Source of the DNA: a candidate division TA06 bacterium SM23_40
GTDB lineage: Bacteria; LJUI01; SM1-40
NCBI GenBank assembly: GCA_001303705.1
Contig: LJUI01000122.1
Span: forward strand, 1-7,711
Length of the DNA stretch: 7,711 nt
Reading direction: 5' to 3'
Shown here one piece after another: positions 1 through 7,711 of the stretch (the stretch's first letter is position 1; each line of letters begins with the position of its first letter). The notes beneath the pieces are model-generated. The model was not told where the DNA came from. It was given only the letters and a program-made list of their open reading frames with translations, and searched no databases. The position numbers and the translations under genes were made by a program.

Positions 1-1983
1 CTCGTCGTCGGTGATCTGGATCGAGGTGGAGGCCGTCCCGCCCGAAGACACGTCCACGTCGATCTCGAACGACCACTGCTCGTAGTATCCGTCCGAATCC
101 GCGTCGGTAATGCTGACGGTGTCTACATCGAAAATGTGGGGCTGGTCGGGATCGTCGACCTGCATCAAGCCCTGATAGGTGTCACCACCGTTGGATAACG
201 TGAATGTGAAAAGCACATCCTCGGGCGGATTGTCGGGATCGACCATCGCGTGGGTGAAGGGCCCTATCACCACAAAATCGCTGGAGGATACCCCTGTGAA
301 TGTGAACGGCCCGTACGGACCCCAGCTGTTGCCCTCATCGTCGGTTATCGTGATCGAGGTCTGCGCCGTACCCCCGTACGGAACGTCGACGTCCACCTTG
401 AAATCCCACTGCTCGAGGTACCCGTCCCCGTCGGCGTCGGTATGGTTGAGGTAATAGACGGCCTCGATATACGGGATGTACGGACCGTCAACAGGTACGG
501 TCTCCTGCGCGGTATCCCCACCATTGGACAGCGTGAACGTGAACACCACGTCCTCCGGCGGCGCATCGGGTGCCACACCGAAGTGCGTGAACGGACCGAT
601 CGTGACATTGTCGCTGGTGAGTGAACCGGTGAACGTGAACGGCCCGTAGCTGCCCCAGTCGTTGCCCTCGTCATCGGTGATCTGGATCGAGGTCGAGGCC
701 GTCCCGCTCAATGGAACATCAACATCGATCTCGAACGACCACTCCTCGTAGTATCCGTCCGAATTGGCATCTGTGGTCGTTACAGTGGTGACCCCCCAGA
801 TGTACGGCTGATAGGGATCGTCAACAGGTACGGTCTCCTGCTCCGTATCACCACCATTGGACAGCGTGAACGTGAACACCACGTCCTCCGGAGGTGTATC
901 CGGATCCACTCCGCTGTTGGTGAACGGCCCGATCGTGACGTTGTCGCTGGTTCCCGTCCCGGTGAATGTGTACGGCCCGTAGCTGCCCCAGTTGTTGCCC
1001 TCATCGTCGGTGATCGAAATCGACGTCGAGGCCGTCCCGCCAGATGGCACATCCACATCGACATCGAACGACCACTGCTCGTAGGAGCCATCCCCGTCAT
1101 CGTCGGTGATAGAGACGGTGGAAATGCCCGCGATGCTGGGCTGATAAGGATCGTCCACCGGCACGGTCTCCTGCGCGGTATCCCCCCCATTGGACAACAC
1201 TAACGTGAATACCACGTCCTCCGGCGGCGCGTCAGGGCCGACCCCGAGCGCCGAGAAAGGCCCGATGGTGACGTTGTCGGTGGTCCCCGTCCCCGTGAAA
1301 GTGAACGGCCCGTAGCTGCCCCAGTCGTTGCCCTCGTCGTCGGTGATCTGGATCGAGGTGGATGCCGTCCCCCCCGAAGACACGTCCACGTCTATTTCGA
1401 AAGACCACTGCTCGTAACTGCCGTCGCCGTCGGTGTCAGTGATGTCGATAGTGGTGATGCCGGCGAAATAGGGCCCGACCGGCTCGTCCACCGGCACCGA
1501 TTTCTGTCCTGTATCTCCCCCTTTGGAGAGCACAAACGTGAATATCACGTCTTCAGGAGGATTATCCGGATCCACCGCCTCTCTCGTGAACGTTCCCACG
1601 TTTACATTGTCGCTTGTCAGTGTGCCTGAGAATGTAAACGGCCCATAGGTTCCCCAATCATTCCCTTCATCGTCGGTAATCGAAATCGAGGTCTGAGCCA
1701 TACCGCCGAAGGGGACGTCCGCATCGATCTCGAAATCCCACGACTCGTAGTAGCCGTCCTGGTCCGAATCGGCGGTATTCACCAGATAGACACCCGCCAG
1801 ATAGGGCACGTAGGGGTCGTCAACATTGACCGACTCTTCTATGCTATCACCCCCGTCGGAGAGAACAAAGGTGAAGACCACATCCTCAGGAGGATCGTCC
1901 GGTGCCACCCCGCCATCAGAAAACGGTCCTATAATCACGTTGTCGCTCGATGAGGCCCCTACAAATGTATAAGGCCCATAGTT
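1..1983 (-). pseudogene. In-frame continuation of the repeat protein beyond the TGA, partial at left edge
   Basis: I translated this stretch in the frame of the upstream ORF. It is open for all 661 codons, with no frameshift and no further stop, and it runs off the window. It completes repeat unit 3, contains units 4 to 8 and holds 46 residues of a ninth unit. There is no plausible independent start. The first in-frame ATG (1705-1707) is inside a conserved GG-M-AQ strand of unit 4 and has neither a ribosome binding site nor a signal peptide. The stretch is therefore expressed only if the TGA at 1984-1986 is a sequence error or is read through. The strong protein-level conservation of the units after the stop shows that selection acted on them until recently, or still does. 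The alternatives are a fresh nonsense mutation, a base-calling error (GGA to TGA is one change), or leaky readthrough. The real C-terminus lies outside the window. Confidence 0.75.
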
Positions 1984-2802
1984 TCACCAATCGTTGCCCT
2001 CGTCATCGGTGATCGCGATGTACGTCTGGGTCGTCCCGCCGTAAGGCACATCCACGTCTATCTCGAAAGACCACTCTTCGTAATAGCCATCCTGGTCCGT
2101 ATCCTGATAGTTGATAGTGTAGATGTCGTAGAAATAGGGAATGGGGAGGTAGCAAACCGGAACGGTAACAGCGGACTGGTCGCCGCCGTTGAGCAGTTCG
2201 AAAGAGAATTCCACGTCCTCTGGCGGATTGTCCGGATTCACCGCTTCAACTGTAAAGGGTCCGATCGTCAAGTTATCGCTGGTAAGGTTCCCGCTGAACG
2301 TATACGGCCCGAAGGCGCCCCAGTCGTTGCCTTCGCTGTCGGTGATTTTTATCGAGGTCGACGCAGTCCCACTGCAATCCACATCCACGTCAATTTCGAA
2401 ATACCACTCTTCGTAGTAACCATCGGAGTTCGCATCGGTGGTGCTGGTTATGTGAATATCGCTGATCTGAGGTTGATAAGGATCATCGACGGGTACCGTA
2501 TGCGTGTGTGTATTCCCACCATTACCGAGCTCGAAGGTGAAGTCCACGTTTTCCGGAGGCTCGTCCGGCAGGACCGCACACTTTGTAAACGGGCCGACAG
2601 TTACATTGTCACTGGTCTCAGTGCCAGTGAACGAGAAGGGACCGAAGGAACCCCAGTCGTTCCCCTCGTCATCGGTCAACAGGATAGAAGTTTCAGCCGT
2701 GCCTTCATTGGGCACATCCACGTCGATGATGAACTTCCACGACTCGAGGTAACTGTCACCATCCTCATCCAGCGTTTCATACACATAGACATCGAATATG
2801 TA
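1..2802 (-). repeat. Tandem array of 333-bp (111-codon) protein repeats, eight full and one partial
   Basis: Unit boundaries in coding order are 2802-2470, 2469-2137, 2136-1804, 1803-1471, 1470-1138, 1137-805, 804-472 and 471-139, then a partial unit at 138-1. The conserved Trp codon sits at 2653, 2320, 1987, 1654, 1321, 988, 655 and 322, always exactly 333 bp apart, so there is no indel in any full unit. Conserved features along a unit are a D-x-[DN]-x-D-G-x-x-E acidic loop at about residues 12-20 (Ser replaces Gly in unit 1), W22, the strand FEIDVDV at 24-30, ITDDEGNDWG at 42-51, YGPFTF at 53-58, SDNVTIGPF at 64-72, PPEDV at 82-86, SNGGD at 93-97 and VPVDDPYQP at 103-111. Alternating short strands and Gly-rich turns suggest a beta-sandwich. 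The acidic loop suggests calcium binding, which is inferred and not shown. Confidence 0.95.
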
Positions 2803-3201
2803 AGGGACCGCGAAAATACACTGGAATGCCCTGCTGTCGACCGGGGAGAGCTCCTGCTGGTCGTCCTCCGCCATGACATAGAATGTGTGATGCCCTTCCT
2901 CTATGTCGGTGTAGGTATGGGATGTCGCCGTCGTCTTCGTAGTAGGCGGATTTTCATCGAGGCCGATATAGTATGCAGAAACGCTTCCGTCCTCGTCACT
3001 GCCGCTCCAGGTGAAAGTGGCTTCCGATTCGAAGATAGTACCGGTCGGGCCGCCGGTTACCTCGACCATCGGTCTCAAATTGGGTTGTACCGGTTGCGGG
3101 ATGACACAGGTACCGGCAGAACACAACATTACTGTTACTACGAAAAACGGAATCGACCGATACGGAAGGACAGCGCGATATTCATGCCGAAAGATAAACA
3201 T
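1984..3201 (-). CDS. Secreted repeat protein, N-terminal part up to an in-frame TGA (405 aa as read)
   Basis: No named family recognised; probably a large extracellular or cell-surface beta-rich protein. Residues 1-30 look like a Sec signal peptide: Arg at 5, 9 and 15, a hydrophobic core around 18-27, and small residues S28 and G30 before a likely cleavage. Cys32 is preceded by Thr, so the lipobox is not canonical and a lipoprotein call is weak. Residues about 44-128 resemble an Ig/FN3-like domain, with TWSGSDEDG and later HHTFYVMAEDD. From residue 134 the protein is made of 111-residue units: two complete, then 50 residues of the third, where TGA ends the frame. The other units have Gly at that point, and the same frame continues open to the window edge. 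The ATG at 3201 is the only reasonable start that keeps the whole signal peptide, but no clear Shine-Dalgarno precedes it. The reading is certain as an ORF; its function is not known. Confidence 0.8.
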   Translation of the reverse strand: MFIFRHEYRAVLPYRSIPFFVVTVMLCSAGTCVIPQPVQPNLRPMVEVTGGPTGTIFESEATFTWSGSDEDGSVSAYYIGLDENPPTTKTTATSHTYTDIEEGHHTFYVMAEDDQQELSPVDSRAFQCIFAVPYIFDVYVYETLDEDGDSYLESWKFIIDVDVPNEGTAETSILLTDDEGNDWGSFGPFSFTGTETSDNVTVGPFTKCAVLPDEPPENVDFTFELGNGGNTHTHTVPVDDPYQPQISDIHITSTTDANSDGYYEEWYFEIDVDVDCSGTASTSIKITDSEGNDWGAFGPYTFSGNLTSDNLTIGPFTVEAVNPDNPPEDVEFSFELLNGGDQSAVTVPVCYLPIPYFYDIYTINYQDTDQDGYYEEWSFEIDVDVPYGGTTQTYIAITDDEGNDW

Positions 3202-3340: not shown

Positions 3341-4714
3341 CTAAAGCGTCAGCAGCGAGTGCGCCTGCAGCATCGCGGACTGGATGTCTATTCCGTAAGG
3401 GCAGGCGCCGCTGCAGGGTGCGCTGCACCCGATGCAGTTGCCCGCGTCGGCCCCGTCCAGACCCGCGTACTCGAGCATGGCGGCCTTCTCGCGCCCCTGG
3501 CACTCGAAGTAGTACGCGAACCGCATGATATCGCTGACCGGCAGGTCGTACGGACACGCCCCCGCGCACATGCTGCATCCGTGACGGCAGTACTTGTCGT
3601 TCAGAACCAGCTCGTAATCGCTCAGGAGGGCCTCATCGGCGGCCGTCAGCGGCCTCCCGGAGAGCGGTATGATCTTGTCGATGATATCCAGGTCGTTCAT
3701 ACCCACGCACGTCGTGTGCATATCGGGATTCTGTGCGACCCACTGGATGCTCTTGAGCTTCAATTGCTCTGCGGATTCGATCCCGTATTTCTCGATGAAC
3801 GGACGGGTGTTCTGGTAGGTCTCCTCCTGGCGTTGTATCTGCTGCCTCAATCCATCGATCGCCTGCTCCCTGGACCTGCCACGGCTCACCATCCGTTCGA
3901 TGTATTCAGACTGCTGTTCGGTGGGATTATCGGGATCGAACGGCGCCGGCCTCAGCATCCCGGGCGAGGTCTTCATTGCCGTCGTGCCGATATCCTTAGC
4001 CTTACACGCCGCAAGAACCTTATCCCCGATTTCCCTGTTCATGAAGTTGTACGAGAACAGGATCACGTCGAACCGGCCGTCATCGGCTGCGGCCAGGAGG
4101 ATATCCTCGAAGCTGTCGGGGCTGCCCCTGCCGGGACCGTGGCAGGAGAAACCCCTGAACCGGGCTTTCCCGTCCGCCCTCAGGCGGTCGCACGCCTCAT
4201 GGAAGACAGGGGTCTTGAGTCCCTCAATACTGGGCACACCGTGCATATAGAAGGCATTGACATGATCGGTTCTCATCCGCGCCAGACACTGGGCGAACCG
4301 GTCCAGGATCGTGTCGACGGTGTCGTTGTTACCCACGCCGATCTTCGTCGTAATGAAGATCTTGCTCCGGTCCATGAACTGCATCGCCTCACCGACGGCC
4401 CTCTCGGCGCCTCCCCTGCTGTATCCCTCGGCGACATCGAGGTAGTTTATGCCCTTCTCATACGCATACCTGACTACAGCGGTATCCTGCAGAGGAACCC
4501 CGCCTACGGCGAGATCCGAGACCATGAACTCGGTGCGGCCCAGTCTCTTGTGCCGCCGGATACGGTCTCCGCCTCCCTGGCGTCCACCGCCCACCAGGAT
4601 GCTTCCGCCCGGACGCATGGAGAGGGTGCTCCCCGCGACGGCGGCGCCACCCACACCTAAAAAGTTCCTTCTGGATATCCCGTTCTGATTTGAATCGCTG
4701 GATTTATCTGACAC
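3341..4714 (-). CDS. Tat-exported aldo/keto reductase with two C-terminal 4Fe-4S motifs (457 aa)
   Basis: Predicted NAD(P)H-type oxidoreductase fused to a ferredoxin-like tail. Residues 14-20 are a textbook twin-arginine motif (SRRNFLG) followed by a hydrophobic Gly/Ala stretch, so export by the Tat system after cofactor insertion is likely. The AKR barrel starts at about residue 55. The catalytic tetrad is visible as D93 and Y98 (LDVAEGY), K124 (ITTKIG) and H158 (FYMHG). Residues about 255-312 form a charged, Gln/Arg-rich insertion with no recognised role. The tail has C376-x3-C380-x2-C383-x3-C387-P and C427-x2-C430-x3-C434-x3-C438-P, two cluster-type motifs. An in-frame ATG at 4786 would add 24 residues, but the GTG at 4714 has AAGGAGGA eight bases upstream and puts the Tat motif at the usual distance, so I use GTG. 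The gene ends with TAG and is divergent from the decarboxylase. The substrate is unknown; the family placement is secure. Confidence 0.93.
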   Translation of the reverse strand: MSDKSSDSNQNGISRRNFLGVGGAAVAGSTLSMRPGGSILVGGGRQGGGDRIRRHKRLGRTEFMVSDLAVGGVPLQDTAVVRYAYEKGINYLDVAEGYSRGGAERAVGEAMQFMDRSKIFITTKIGVGNNDTVDTILDRFAQCLARMRTDHVNAFYMHGVPSIEGLKTPVFHEACDRLRADGKARFRGFSCHGPGRGSPDSFEDILLAAADDGRFDVILFSYNFMNREIGDKVLAACKAKDIGTTAMKTSPGMLRPAPFDPDNPTEQQSEYIERMVSRGRSREQAIDGLRQQIQRQEETYQNTRPFIEKYGIESAEQLKLKSIQWVAQNPDMHTTCVGMNDLDIIDKIIPLSGRPLTAADEALLSDYELVLNDKYCRHGCSMCAGACPYDLPVSDIMRFAYYFECQGREKAAMLEYAGLDGADAGNCIGCSAPCSGACPYGIDIQSAMLQAHSLLTL

Positions 4715-4722
4715 GGTGAGGC

Positions 4723-4730
4723 TCCTCCTT
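4723..4730 (-). promoter_or_regulatory. Strong ribosome binding site that fixes a GTG start
   Basis: On the minus strand the sequence reads AAGGAGGA, then eight bases, then GTG (4714-4712) and TCA. This near-perfect Shine-Dalgarno decides between the GTG and the upstream ATG at 4786 of the reductase gene. Confidence 0.85.
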
Positions 4731-4788
4731 GACGGTCCTCCGCTCCCCGGAGATCGGTACGACGTGGAAAAATTTCTTTCGGGCACCT

Positions 4789-4819
4789 AAGATATTGTCC
4801 AGGCCCGACTCAAAGTCAA
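4789..4819 (-). promoter_or_regulatory. Weak sigma70-like promoter candidate for the reductase gene
   Basis: On the minus strand TTGACT (4814-4819) matches five of six -35 bases. TATCTT (4789-4794) matches four of six -10 bases. The spacer is 19 bases, longer than the ideal 17, so the call is tentative. Transcription would begin near 4782, just inside the alternative ATG at 4786, which agrees with use of the GTG start at 4714. Confidence 0.25.
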
Positions 4820-4949
4820 GGCGACGAACACTTCTCCTGACCCGCAGATTACGGTTATTATTACACTGCCACGTTATCTGCCCTTCAGACGCACTGGCAG
4901 AACCTCACCAGCACGGTGTGGCACCCAACTCTGAAAAGGGACTCGTTCG
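4820..4949 (+). promoter_or_regulatory. Divergent intergenic region and leader of the decarboxylase gene
   Basis: This stretch lies between the divergent reductase and decarboxylase genes. An AT-rich TATTAT (4856-4861) could be a -10 box for the plus strand, but no convincing -35 precedes it. An inverted repeat CTGCCA (4866-4871) and TGGCAG (4895-4900), separated by 23 bases, lies downstream of it and could form a loose stem in the leader or be a half-site pair. AAAAGGGA (4934-4941) ends eight bases before the ATG at 4950 and is a reasonable ribosome binding site. No riboswitch class or small gene is recognised. Confidence 0.3.
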
Positions 4950-6461
4950 ATGCCGGAATCACCTCCCAACCGATCAGACATATCCCCCCTGCCCCTTCCC
5001 TCCGGTGACATGCCGGTGGAGGACTTCCGTACCGCCGGCTACCGGGTGATCGACTGGATCGCCGACTACCTAGAGAAGGGGCCCCGGGCGCCGATCCTTT
5101 CCAAAGTGGAGCCGGGTGAAGTGACGGGCCGGCTGTCCGAAACCGCCCCGCCGGAAGGCAGCTCGTTCGATGAGATATTCAGAGACTTCGGAGAGATCAT
5201 CTATCCGGGTCTCACCCACTGGAACAGTCCCAGATATATGGCCTACTTCCCCTCATCGGCCTCCGGGCCCGCCATCCTGGGTGAGCTGCTCGCCGCCGGC
5301 ACCAGCCAGAACGCCATGGCATGGCGGACCAGTCCCTCGGGCACCGAGCTGGAGCTGAGGGTGATGGATTGGCTCCGGGACCTGCTGGGGCTGCCGGGAG
5401 AGTTCCACGGCCATATAGTGGATACGGCCTCCATATCCACTATGCTGGCCCTGGCCGCGGCCAGGGAGGCGCACCGGGATCTCCAGATCCGCACCCGCGG
5501 CGCGGCGGGAAGATCCGACCTGCCCCCGCTCACGGTATACGCTTCGGAGGAGGCGCATTCCTCTGTGGACAAGTCGGTGATAACGCTCGGCTACGGGCAG
5601 GAACAGTTACGTAAGATACCTACTGACAATGACTACCGCATGATATCTCAATCATTACATGATGCCATCAGAAAGGATAGGGATGCCGGTTTCCATCCCC
5701 TGGCTGTAGTCGCCACCGTGGGCACCACTTCGAGTACGAGCATAGATCCTGTGGCCGAGATCGCCGACATCTGCCAGGAGTACGACCTCTGGCTGCACGT
5801 GGATGCGGCCTACGGCGGGGTCGCCGCCATCGTACCGGAGAAACGCCACATCCTGGACGGCTGCGACCGCGCCGACTCCCTCGTCGTCAACCCACACAAG
5901 TGGCTCTTCACGCCGATGGACTGCAGCGCCTTCTTCGTCCGCAGGCCCGAAGTACTCAAGGCAACCTTCAGCCTCATACCGGAATACCTGTCCAGCGAGC
6001 GCGACTCTGAGGAAGCGGTCACCAATCTGATGGATTACGGAATCCAGCTCGGGAGGCGGTTCCGATCCCTGAAGCTGTGGATGGTGCTGAGGTACTTCGG
6101 TGCCGACGGCATGGCCGAGAGGCTCAGGTATCACATGACACTCGCGGACCGCCTGGCCGGTATCATCGAGGATCAGCCTGGGGTGGAACTGATGGCGCCC
6201 GTGAATTTCGCAACCGTCTGCTTCAGGTTCCATCCCGGAAGCCTGGAAGGCACCGAAGAGGAGATCGAGGCCCGACTCGAGGAGCTCAACTCCCGGATAA
6301 TGGCCGAGGCCAACGCCACCGGAGAGGTGTTCCTGAGCCATACGAAATTGAAAGATCAATACACGCTGCGCCTGGTGTTCGGACACCTGAGGACCACCGG
6401 AGACGACGTACGGGAGGTCTGGGAGCTCCTGACCCGATTGGCTGAAAAAGCAGCAGGCTGA
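4950..6461 (+). CDS. PLP-dependent group II (aromatic-L-amino-acid type) decarboxylase (503 aa)
   Basis: Predicted cytoplasmic enzyme that removes the carboxyl group of an amino acid, probably aromatic, to give an amine. After a Pro-rich leader of about 20 residues comes the helical N-domain (RTAGYRVIDWIADYLE, about 27-42) and HWNSPRYMAYFPSS (90-103). The PLP domain shows H203 (EEAHSSVDK), which stacks on the cofactor, the GTTSSTSID stretch at 258-266, D285 in HVDAAYGG, which pairs with the pyridine nitrogen, and K317 in NPHKWLF, the Schiff-base lysine. Y346 (IPEYL) matches the catalytic-loop Tyr of animal and plant decarboxylases. It is Phe in the related aldehyde synthases, so decarboxylation is favoured. 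IQLGRRFRSLKLW (365-377) is another family signature. Full length, with no break; it uses TGA as its stop. The substrate (tyrosine, tryptophan, phenylalanine, DOPA or other) cannot be told from sequence alone. It has no same-strand neighbour in the window. Confidence 0.95.
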   Translation: MPESPPNRSDISPLPLPSGDMPVEDFRTAGYRVIDWIADYLEKGPRAPILSKVEPGEVTGRLSETAPPEGSSFDEIFRDFGEIIYPGLTHWNSPRYMAYFPSSASGPAILGELLAAGTSQNAMAWRTSPSGTELELRVMDWLRDLLGLPGEFHGHIVDTASISTMLALAAAREAHRDLQIRTRGAAGRSDLPPLTVYASEEAHSSVDKSVITLGYGQEQLRKIPTDNDYRMISQSLHDAIRKDRDAGFHPLAVVATVGTTSSTSIDPVAEIADICQEYDLWLHVDAAYGGVAAIVPEKRHILDGCDRADSLVVNPHKWLFTPMDCSAFFVRRPEVLKATFSLIPEYLSSERDSEEAVTNLMDYGIQLGRRFRSLKLWMVLRYFGADGMAERLRYHMTLADRLAGIIEDQPGVELMAPVNFATVCFRFHPGSLEGTEEEIEARLEELNSRIMAEANATGEVFLSHTKLKDQYTLRLVFGHLRTTGDDVREVWELLTRLAEKAAG

Positions 6462-6463
6462 AA

Positions 6464-6487
6464 AAAGGGCGCCCGGGGGCGCCCTTT
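6464..6487. terminator. Bidirectional intrinsic terminator between convergent genes
   Basis: A 10-bp perfect stem AAAGGGCGCC / GGCGCCCTTT (6464-6473 with 6478-6487) closes a four-base loop. On the minus strand it is followed by six T (complement of 6461-6466), an excellent rho-independent terminator for the amidohydrolase gene. On the plus strand only three T follow, so termination of the decarboxylase transcript is weaker. The decarboxylase TGA contributes the first A of the run. Confidence 0.9.
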
Positions 6488-6529
6488 CGGCTTCTCACGG
6501 GGATATGCCGCAGAACCCCCGCGTCCGTG

Positions 6530-7711
6530 TCAGAAATCGGGATTCTCGTACACTATCCTGCCGTCGACTATCGTGTACAGCACCTCTGTCTTCAGGATGT
6601 CCTCCGGATCGATTTCGATCAGGTTCTGACTCAGCACGGTGAAGTCGGCGAACTTGCCCGTCCTGATGGACCCGAACTGATCCTCCTCGAACGTGGCCCA
6701 GGCGCAGTTGATCGTGAAGGCCTCGATCGCCTCGTGGACCGTTATCTTCTGCTCCGGGTACCATCCGCCTGCAGGCTCCCCCTCCAGTGTGGTCCGGTTA
6801 ACGGCGGCGTGTATGAGGTATCTGGGATGCTGGTGGTAGATAGCCGCGTTGGTGCCCGGCCAGTCGCTGCCGAACACCAGCACCGCGCCGTTATCCTTCA
6901 GCCTGCGGAAGGCATAGGCGCCCTTGCACCTGTCGCCTATCCGCTCGTACATCCAGCGCATGTCGTCGGAGAGGTGATACGGATTGATCTCGGCCACCAG
7001 ACCCAGCTCGCCGAAACGGACGAAGTCCTTGTCGTGAACGACCTGCGCGTGGATGACCCTCCACCTGTGGTCTTTTATATCGAATTCGTCGATGACCCGC
7101 TCGTACATGGTCAGCAGGGTGTCCACCCCCTTGTCACCTATGGCGTGGATGTGGGGAGCGAATCCCGCCCGGTATCCCCTCCGTATCAGCTCCTCCATCC
7201 CGGGATCGGGAGTCATCCGGCTGCGCCATATTCCGTAATGACCCGGACGGTCCTCGTAAGGTTCGTAGAACATGGCCCCCCAACTGCCCATGATGCCGTC
7301 TATGAAATCCTTCAGGCCCGAGAAGCGCAGCCACGGGTCCCCTAATCCCTGAGTGATTCCAACGCGGTTCAGGAACTCGGCCTTCTCCAGTGTCGGCCTG
7401 GGCCTGACGCGTGCGGTCATCTCACCGGTGGCGTAGAGTTCCTGGAAGATCTCGAGCTGGTCGGGAGGGGTTATGTCGTGGAACATGGTGATGCCGGCTT
7501 CGGCCATCTTCTTGAACGCATACCGCGACTCGGCCAGCCTCCGCTCGTGGGATATCCCGGGCAGGGTTTGGAACATTCTCATTATGGCTCCGCGGTTGCC
7601 CTCCATGAGACCCGTGGGATCGCCCCTCCTGTCCCTGTGGATGGTCACACCGCTGGGATCCCTGGTGTTCCTGTCTATTCCCGCCATCTCCAGGGCGAGG
7701 CTGTTGGCCAG
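6530..7711 (-). CDS. YtcJ-type amidohydrolase (amidohydrolase 3 family), partial at right edge
   Basis: Metal-dependent hydrolase of the amidohydrolase superfamily; YtcJ-like proteins include N-substituted formamide deformylases, but most have unknown substrates. 393 residues are present. The frame is open to the last base and begins at LANSLALEMAGID, a stretch that lies inside the domain in this family, so I judge that roughly 150-200 N-terminal residues, including the first HxH metal motif, are outside. Numbered from the edge, visible active-site motifs are K134 in SGLKDFIDG, H187 and H189 in HIHAIGDKG, H221 in VIHAQ and D283 in FGSDWPG. The C-terminus has the usual small beta domain: FGSIRTGKFADFTVL, then TIVDGRIVYE. 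No stop or frameshift interrupts it. It ends with TGA, 43 bases before the terminator stem. The ATG at 7687 is internal and is not the start. It is convergent with the decarboxylase; a joint role in amine or amide turnover is only a guess. Confidence 0.93.
   Translation of the reverse strand: MANSLALEMAGIDRNTRDPSGVTIHRDRRGDPTGLMEGNRGAIMRMFQTLPGISHERRLAESRYAFKKMAEAGITMFHDITPPDQLEIFQELYATGEMTARVRPRPTLEKAEFLNRVGITQGLGDPWLRFSGLKDFIDGIMGSWGAMFYEPYEDRPGHYGIWRSRMTPDPGMEELIRRGYRAGFAPHIHAIGDKGVDTLLTMYERVIDEFDIKDHRWRVIHAQVVHDKDFVRFGELGLVAEINPYHLSDDMRWMYERIGDRCKGAYAFRRLKDNGAVLVFGSDWPGTNAAIYHQHPRYLIHAAVNRTTLEGEPAGGWYPEQKITVHEAIEAFTINCAWATFEEDQFGSIRTGKFADFTVLSQNLIEIDPEDILKTEVLYTIVDGRIVYENPDF

Follow-up and report, generated by a model that had tools for sequence, protein, structure and literature searches.

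At the left end of the window, which is the whole of contig C81 (7,711 nt), we found a minus-strand gene encoding at least nine tandem units of 111 residues that are diverged in sequence and constant in length. The protein is of an ordinary type; the domain that it repeats is poorly described. We lean towards reading it as a secreted stalk, stiffened by Ca2+, that would work like the extender repeats of RTX adhesins.

The reading frame (Table 1) comprises 1,067 codons and runs off the left contig edge, beyond which the C-terminus lies; eight full units and a partial one of 47 residues are present, and this number is a lower bound. Positions 1-30 are an exact copy of 1333-1362 in unit 5, and this 30-base repeat is the likely reason for the assembly break at the left edge. 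A unit search of the assembly (2.88 Mb in 189 contigs, about 90% complete) revealed no further contig of the same genome that carries units. The first ~31 residues resemble a signal peptide, with a basic n-region followed by the hydrophobic core IPFFVVTVML; a Cys is situated near the cleavage site, without a canonical lipobox. For the single N-terminal domain that precedes the array, the best scores were E 0.26 for PKD, 0.01 for Pur_ac_phosph_N and 0.05 for Big_13. The original prediction had located the array at 1-2802; its end has to be shifted, as unit 1 begins at 2805 and the gene reaches 3201.

Table 1. Features of the repeat gene, in window coordinates; units were cut without gaps at 111 residues.
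Feature	Position	Strand	Remark
Repeat-protein reading frame	1..3201	minus	start ATG at 3201, no stop up to the contig edge save one TGA
Probable Sec-type signal peptide	3109..3201	minus	sequence reading
Single N-terminal Ig/fibronectin-like domain	2806..3066	minus	weak matches, all below cut-off
Unit 1	2473..2805	minus	111 aa
Unit 2	2140..2472	minus	111 aa, atypical C-terminal linker VCYLPI
Unit 3	1807..2139	minus	111 codons, TGA inside
In-frame TGA, unit column 52	1984..1986	minus	Gly codon in the seven other full units
Unit 4	1474..1806	minus	111 aa
Unit 5	1141..1473	minus	111 aa
Unit 6	808..1140	minus	111 aa
Unit 7	475..807	minus	111 aa
Unit 8	142..474	minus	111 aa
Unit 9	1..141	minus	first 47 aa, ended by the contig edge

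Two series of Trp codons mark the period. Those of the DWG motif are located on the minus strand at 2653, 2320, 1987, 1654, 1321, 988, 655 and 322, those of the E-x-W-x-F motif (n=9) at 2737, 2404, 2071, 1738, 1405, 1072, 739, 406 and 73. The spacing is exactly 333 bp in both, so that the eight equidistant Trp codons reported originally are confirmed and joined by a second, agreeing series. Self-identity of positions 1-2805 was 0.67, 0.66, 0.65 and 0.65 at lags of 333, 666, 999 and 1332, and 0.25 +/- 0.03, with a maximum of 0.35, at the remaining lags. Cut without gaps, the units share 52-81% protein identity, and optimal gapped alignment opened a gap in none of the 28 unit pairs, which bears out the claim that the array is free of indels; the 2% indels given by TRF were not reproduced at the protein level.

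How unusual such a fixed length is can be judged from control arrays. We screened 336 diverse genomes for Big_9, a stalk domain, and cut and compared 20 array regions alike; ten bacterial arrays, each with at least three unit pairs at 50-82% identity, made up the control set. Two of the ten (L121 and L125) were wholly gap-free, a fraction to be read with regard to the fact that all controls were found via one domain family and that pairs taken from the same array depend on one another. A third array (L119) contained one odd unit and was otherwise near gap-free; gaps occurred frequently in the remaining seven, with zero-gap fractions of 0.00-0.29. The seven units of L121 are gap-free at just 38-55% overall identity. 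L121 and L119, encoded on contigs C26 and C91 of genome G172, both consist of 96-residue units that are nearly indel-free at 38-64% identity, which is stricter than in the 111-residue array. Going by this control set, repeats of constant length at 50-80% identity are uncommon yet not exceptional. The 111-residue array sits at the rigid end of the known range; its constancy is real but not out of the ordinary. YeeJ of E. coli K-12 was dropped as a control, being too diverged (~20-52% identity) for direct comparison, and the DNA repeats of constant length in Bacillus (PMC8161180) represent another phenomenon.

These controls also bear on the way in which the fixed length had been interpreted. 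The expectation that surface repeats gain or lose loop residues as they diverge applies to some degree to eight of the ten controls and fails for the two gap-free ones. A tightly packed rod is a reasonable reading, and the one that we favour, though it does not follow from the length constancy: since two of ten controls are equally gap-free, length constancy by itself should not count as evidence for a filament.

In pairwise comparisons of the units, 55% of third codon positions differed, as against 28% of first and 24% of second positions. The Nei-Gojobori method yielded dN values of 0.13-0.44 and dS values of 0.65-3.3 or saturation, almost every pair either exceeding a dS of 1.3 or being saturated. 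This shows that each unit is constrained at the protein level. Saturation of most synonymous sites marks the units as long-standing duplicates maintained by purifying selection, as opposed to copies exchanged of late. A more recent relationship is apparent only among units 5-7, the youngest group in the array. They are 76-81% identical at a dS of 0.65-1.1, units 6 and 7 have an exact tract of 41 bp or more in common (from 851 and 518, respectively), and run-length tests gave a nominally low p of 0.004 for u5-u7, without correction for the 28 pairs. Such signs would be expected if frequent in-register exchange or homogenisation of units, rather than structural constraint, kept the length fixed, as the original prediction had considered in its suggestion of renewal by unit exchange. 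We regard this as very unlikely: the remaining pairs show the high or saturated dS given above, identity is nearly flat with distance, adjacent units being hardly more alike than remote ones, and GC3 within this one gene is 0.61-0.67 in units 1-4 versus 0.76-0.83 in units 5-8. With the conversion-tract tests being weak over 28 pairs and identity being flat, the array can be explained without ongoing homogenisation.

The earlier description, correct as to the period, overlooked the in-frame TGA of unit 3, at which the product would end after 405 residues. Recoding of UGA as Gly or another residue was rejected: TGA ends both neighbouring genes, a decarboxylase (6459-6461) and an amidohydrolase (6530-6532), and there were no inner stops in 34 ABC_tran (ABC-transporter) matches of the genome. 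Recoding being unlikely, the gene is truncated (recently, to 405 residues), polymorphic in the population, or affected by a consensus error. A more radical reading takes the TGA as fixed and the array as the functionless relic of a decaying pseudogene. The triplet is in frame and a genuine stop in this genome, and syntenic relatives do without the repeat gene (see below); on the other hand, it is the single stop in 1,067 codons, there is no frameshift, and the codons beyond it retain selection pattern and period. Any inactivation must therefore be recent, and a consensus error in this metagenome-assembled contig is equally possible, so we consider a decaying pseudogene unlikely.

Concerning the identity of the unit, no unit matched a Pfam family above threshold. 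The profile search of domain databases that had been proposed returned no strong match for a single unit. The best one per unit was to NCBIfam NF038116 (Sden1266_dom, choice-of-anchor H family protein), which matches every unit weakly, at 18.6-24.6 bits each, the curated cut-off being 53 bits. Summing over units gives the 646-aa piece 85.9 bits, which exceeds the cut-off, and the 405-aa piece 51.2 bits; individual units align mainly with the first 70-85 of the 124 profile positions, at most with 3-85, and thus not with its full length. A separate profile comparison with two domains of G058 and one of G283 (NF038116-like) gave an E value of 1.6e-6, and NF038116 has the same opening motif, DxDxDGYYxxFxxxxDxD, as the units. 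We treat the unit as a distant relative of NF038116 and not as a member. The earlier statement that the unit is no named domain hence stands with respect to Pfam cut-offs and has to be amended for this sub-threshold relative recognised in each unit. The NF038116-like proteins of G283 and G058 contain one or two domain copies, whereas the repeat protein contains at least nine. In G058, two tandem domains of the superfamily are found before the adaptor part of a predicted RND-type membrane-fusion (efflux adaptor) lipoprotein (L020, 460-2259). A literature search found no paper on NF038116.

A DUF4785_3rd (PF20943)-like domain of L024 has a DTDSDGLYD opening and an aligned stretch of 73 residues in common with the unit. 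This comparison is weak (probability 41%); the L024 domain has longer loops, occurs in single copy and itself scores 23.3 bits against PF20943 (cut-off 24.5). Close relatives of the unit were found neither in genome contigs, viral contigs or plasmids nor in 58 other genomes, where it has to be considered that pattern-based scans can miss distant members. A wider profile applied to 385 other genomes retrieved nothing but four distant matches with one or two copies, and PHROGs gave only short partial matches.

AlphaFold models of three and of two units (mean pLDDT 76 and 77, respectively) both have seven strands per unit, arranged in the prediction as an Ig-like beta-sandwich. At a pTM of only 0.51-0.52, modelling two or three adjacent units, as had been suggested, informs on the fold of each unit and not on the unit-to-unit orientation. 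The three-unit model aligned with the MhLap extender tetra-tandemer 6xi3 over 282 residues (Z 10.4, rmsd 7.2), a likeness between model and structure that reflects similar domains in a row, not identical packing.

The best solved matches of single predicted units were GH2 Ig-like domains (Z 11-12, rmsd ~2.3-2.5 over ~100 residues). The predicted fold is alike at an identity of ~8-15%, and the corresponding family PF00703 reached 14.3 bits, below the Pfam gathering threshold of 23; unlike GH2 glycoside hydrolases, the repeat protein has no catalytic domain. Such matches would also suit units that are ligand-binding modules, for example carbohydrate-binding ones, repeated for avidity instead of building a stalk. 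The Ig-like domain of GH2 enzymes is, however, structural and not catalytic. Conservation is found mainly in Gly residues, the acidic loops and the core, with the A strand being most variable. Though stalk and adhesive roles can overlap (PMC8286594), we find it improbable that ligand binding is what the units are for.

The stalk reading that we prefer takes up the distribution of charges. Over the 888 positions of the eight full units there are 169 Asp/Glu and 7 Lys/Arg. If loop ends are assigned from strand order, assuming the alternating up-down Ig order, acidic residues make up 36% of the loops on the linker end (74/208) and 9% of those on the opposite end (11/120). The linker-end segments are 13-19 (DxDxDG), 46-49 (DEGN), 77-85 (PDxPPE) and 106-111 (VDDPY, the C-terminal linker). 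D13, D17 and E21 are invariant across units; the linker of unit 2 lacks the Asp pair. According to our proposal, the protein would be secreted, with a body made of serially linked Ig-like beta-sandwich domains from a single family, in which the acidic DxDxDG...E loop and the other conserved acidic loops share an end with the linker to the next unit. These loops may bind Ca2+ at the unit junctions, and junction Ca2+ would stiffen the chain into a rod projecting from the cell surface. The fixed 111 residues would then mean that junction loops and domain core accept substitution, not length change. The high acidity could also be a salt adaptation.

Acid-rich repeats with few basic residues and linker Ca2+ are the pattern in the RTX adhesins MpAFP, MhLap and AhLap, and stiffening of extender chains by calcium has been seen in crystal structures (PMC7493085, PMC4083281). 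The extenders concerned (MpAFP RII, MhLap and AhLap) are acidic tandem beta-sandwiches of ~100 residues with few Lys/Arg, as are the units according to their predicted fold. Repeat identity is variable among RTX-adhesin extenders and amounts to 65-90% in MhLap (PMC7493085). On the other hand, the units have no sequence match to any solved chain (nothing below E 0.6), and the calcium sites proposed here are putative. Moreover, the sequenced part of the protein shows no RTX or retention domain, and a Pfam search of this part found no known adhesive domain; an anchoring or adhesive domain is not visible because the C-terminus lies beyond the contig edge. The signal peptide-like stretch argues against the type I secretion of RTX adhesins. 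Fibrillar adhesin-like proteins combine tandem stalk domains with at least one adhesive domain, of which the stalk-like array is seen here.

With this array, a poorly described Ig-like domain joins the list of bacterial stalk modules. Calcium junctions, if true, would support the proposal that calcium-stiffened extenders may have evolved repeatedly (PMC7493085). We think it possible rather than probable that the units represent a new stalk-domain family, so far known from a single genome in a phylum with hardly any sampling, in which the NF038116 superfamily would have given rise by convergence to a calcium-clamped, length-invariant equivalent of the RTX extenders.

The remainder of the window (3341-7711) encodes an aldo-keto reductase with a TAT signal and Fe-S motifs, a PLP-dependent decarboxylase and an amidohydrolase. 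The order of these three genes is kept in L029; L078 retains that of the first two, up to the end of its contig. Neither L029 nor L078 nor any of the four genomes of their group, all of them incomplete assemblies, carries the repeat gene, which is thus specific to its lineage within this sample. The most similar decarboxylases (71-83% identity) derive from MAGs labelled Latescibacterota, Zixiibacteriota or unnamed bacterium.
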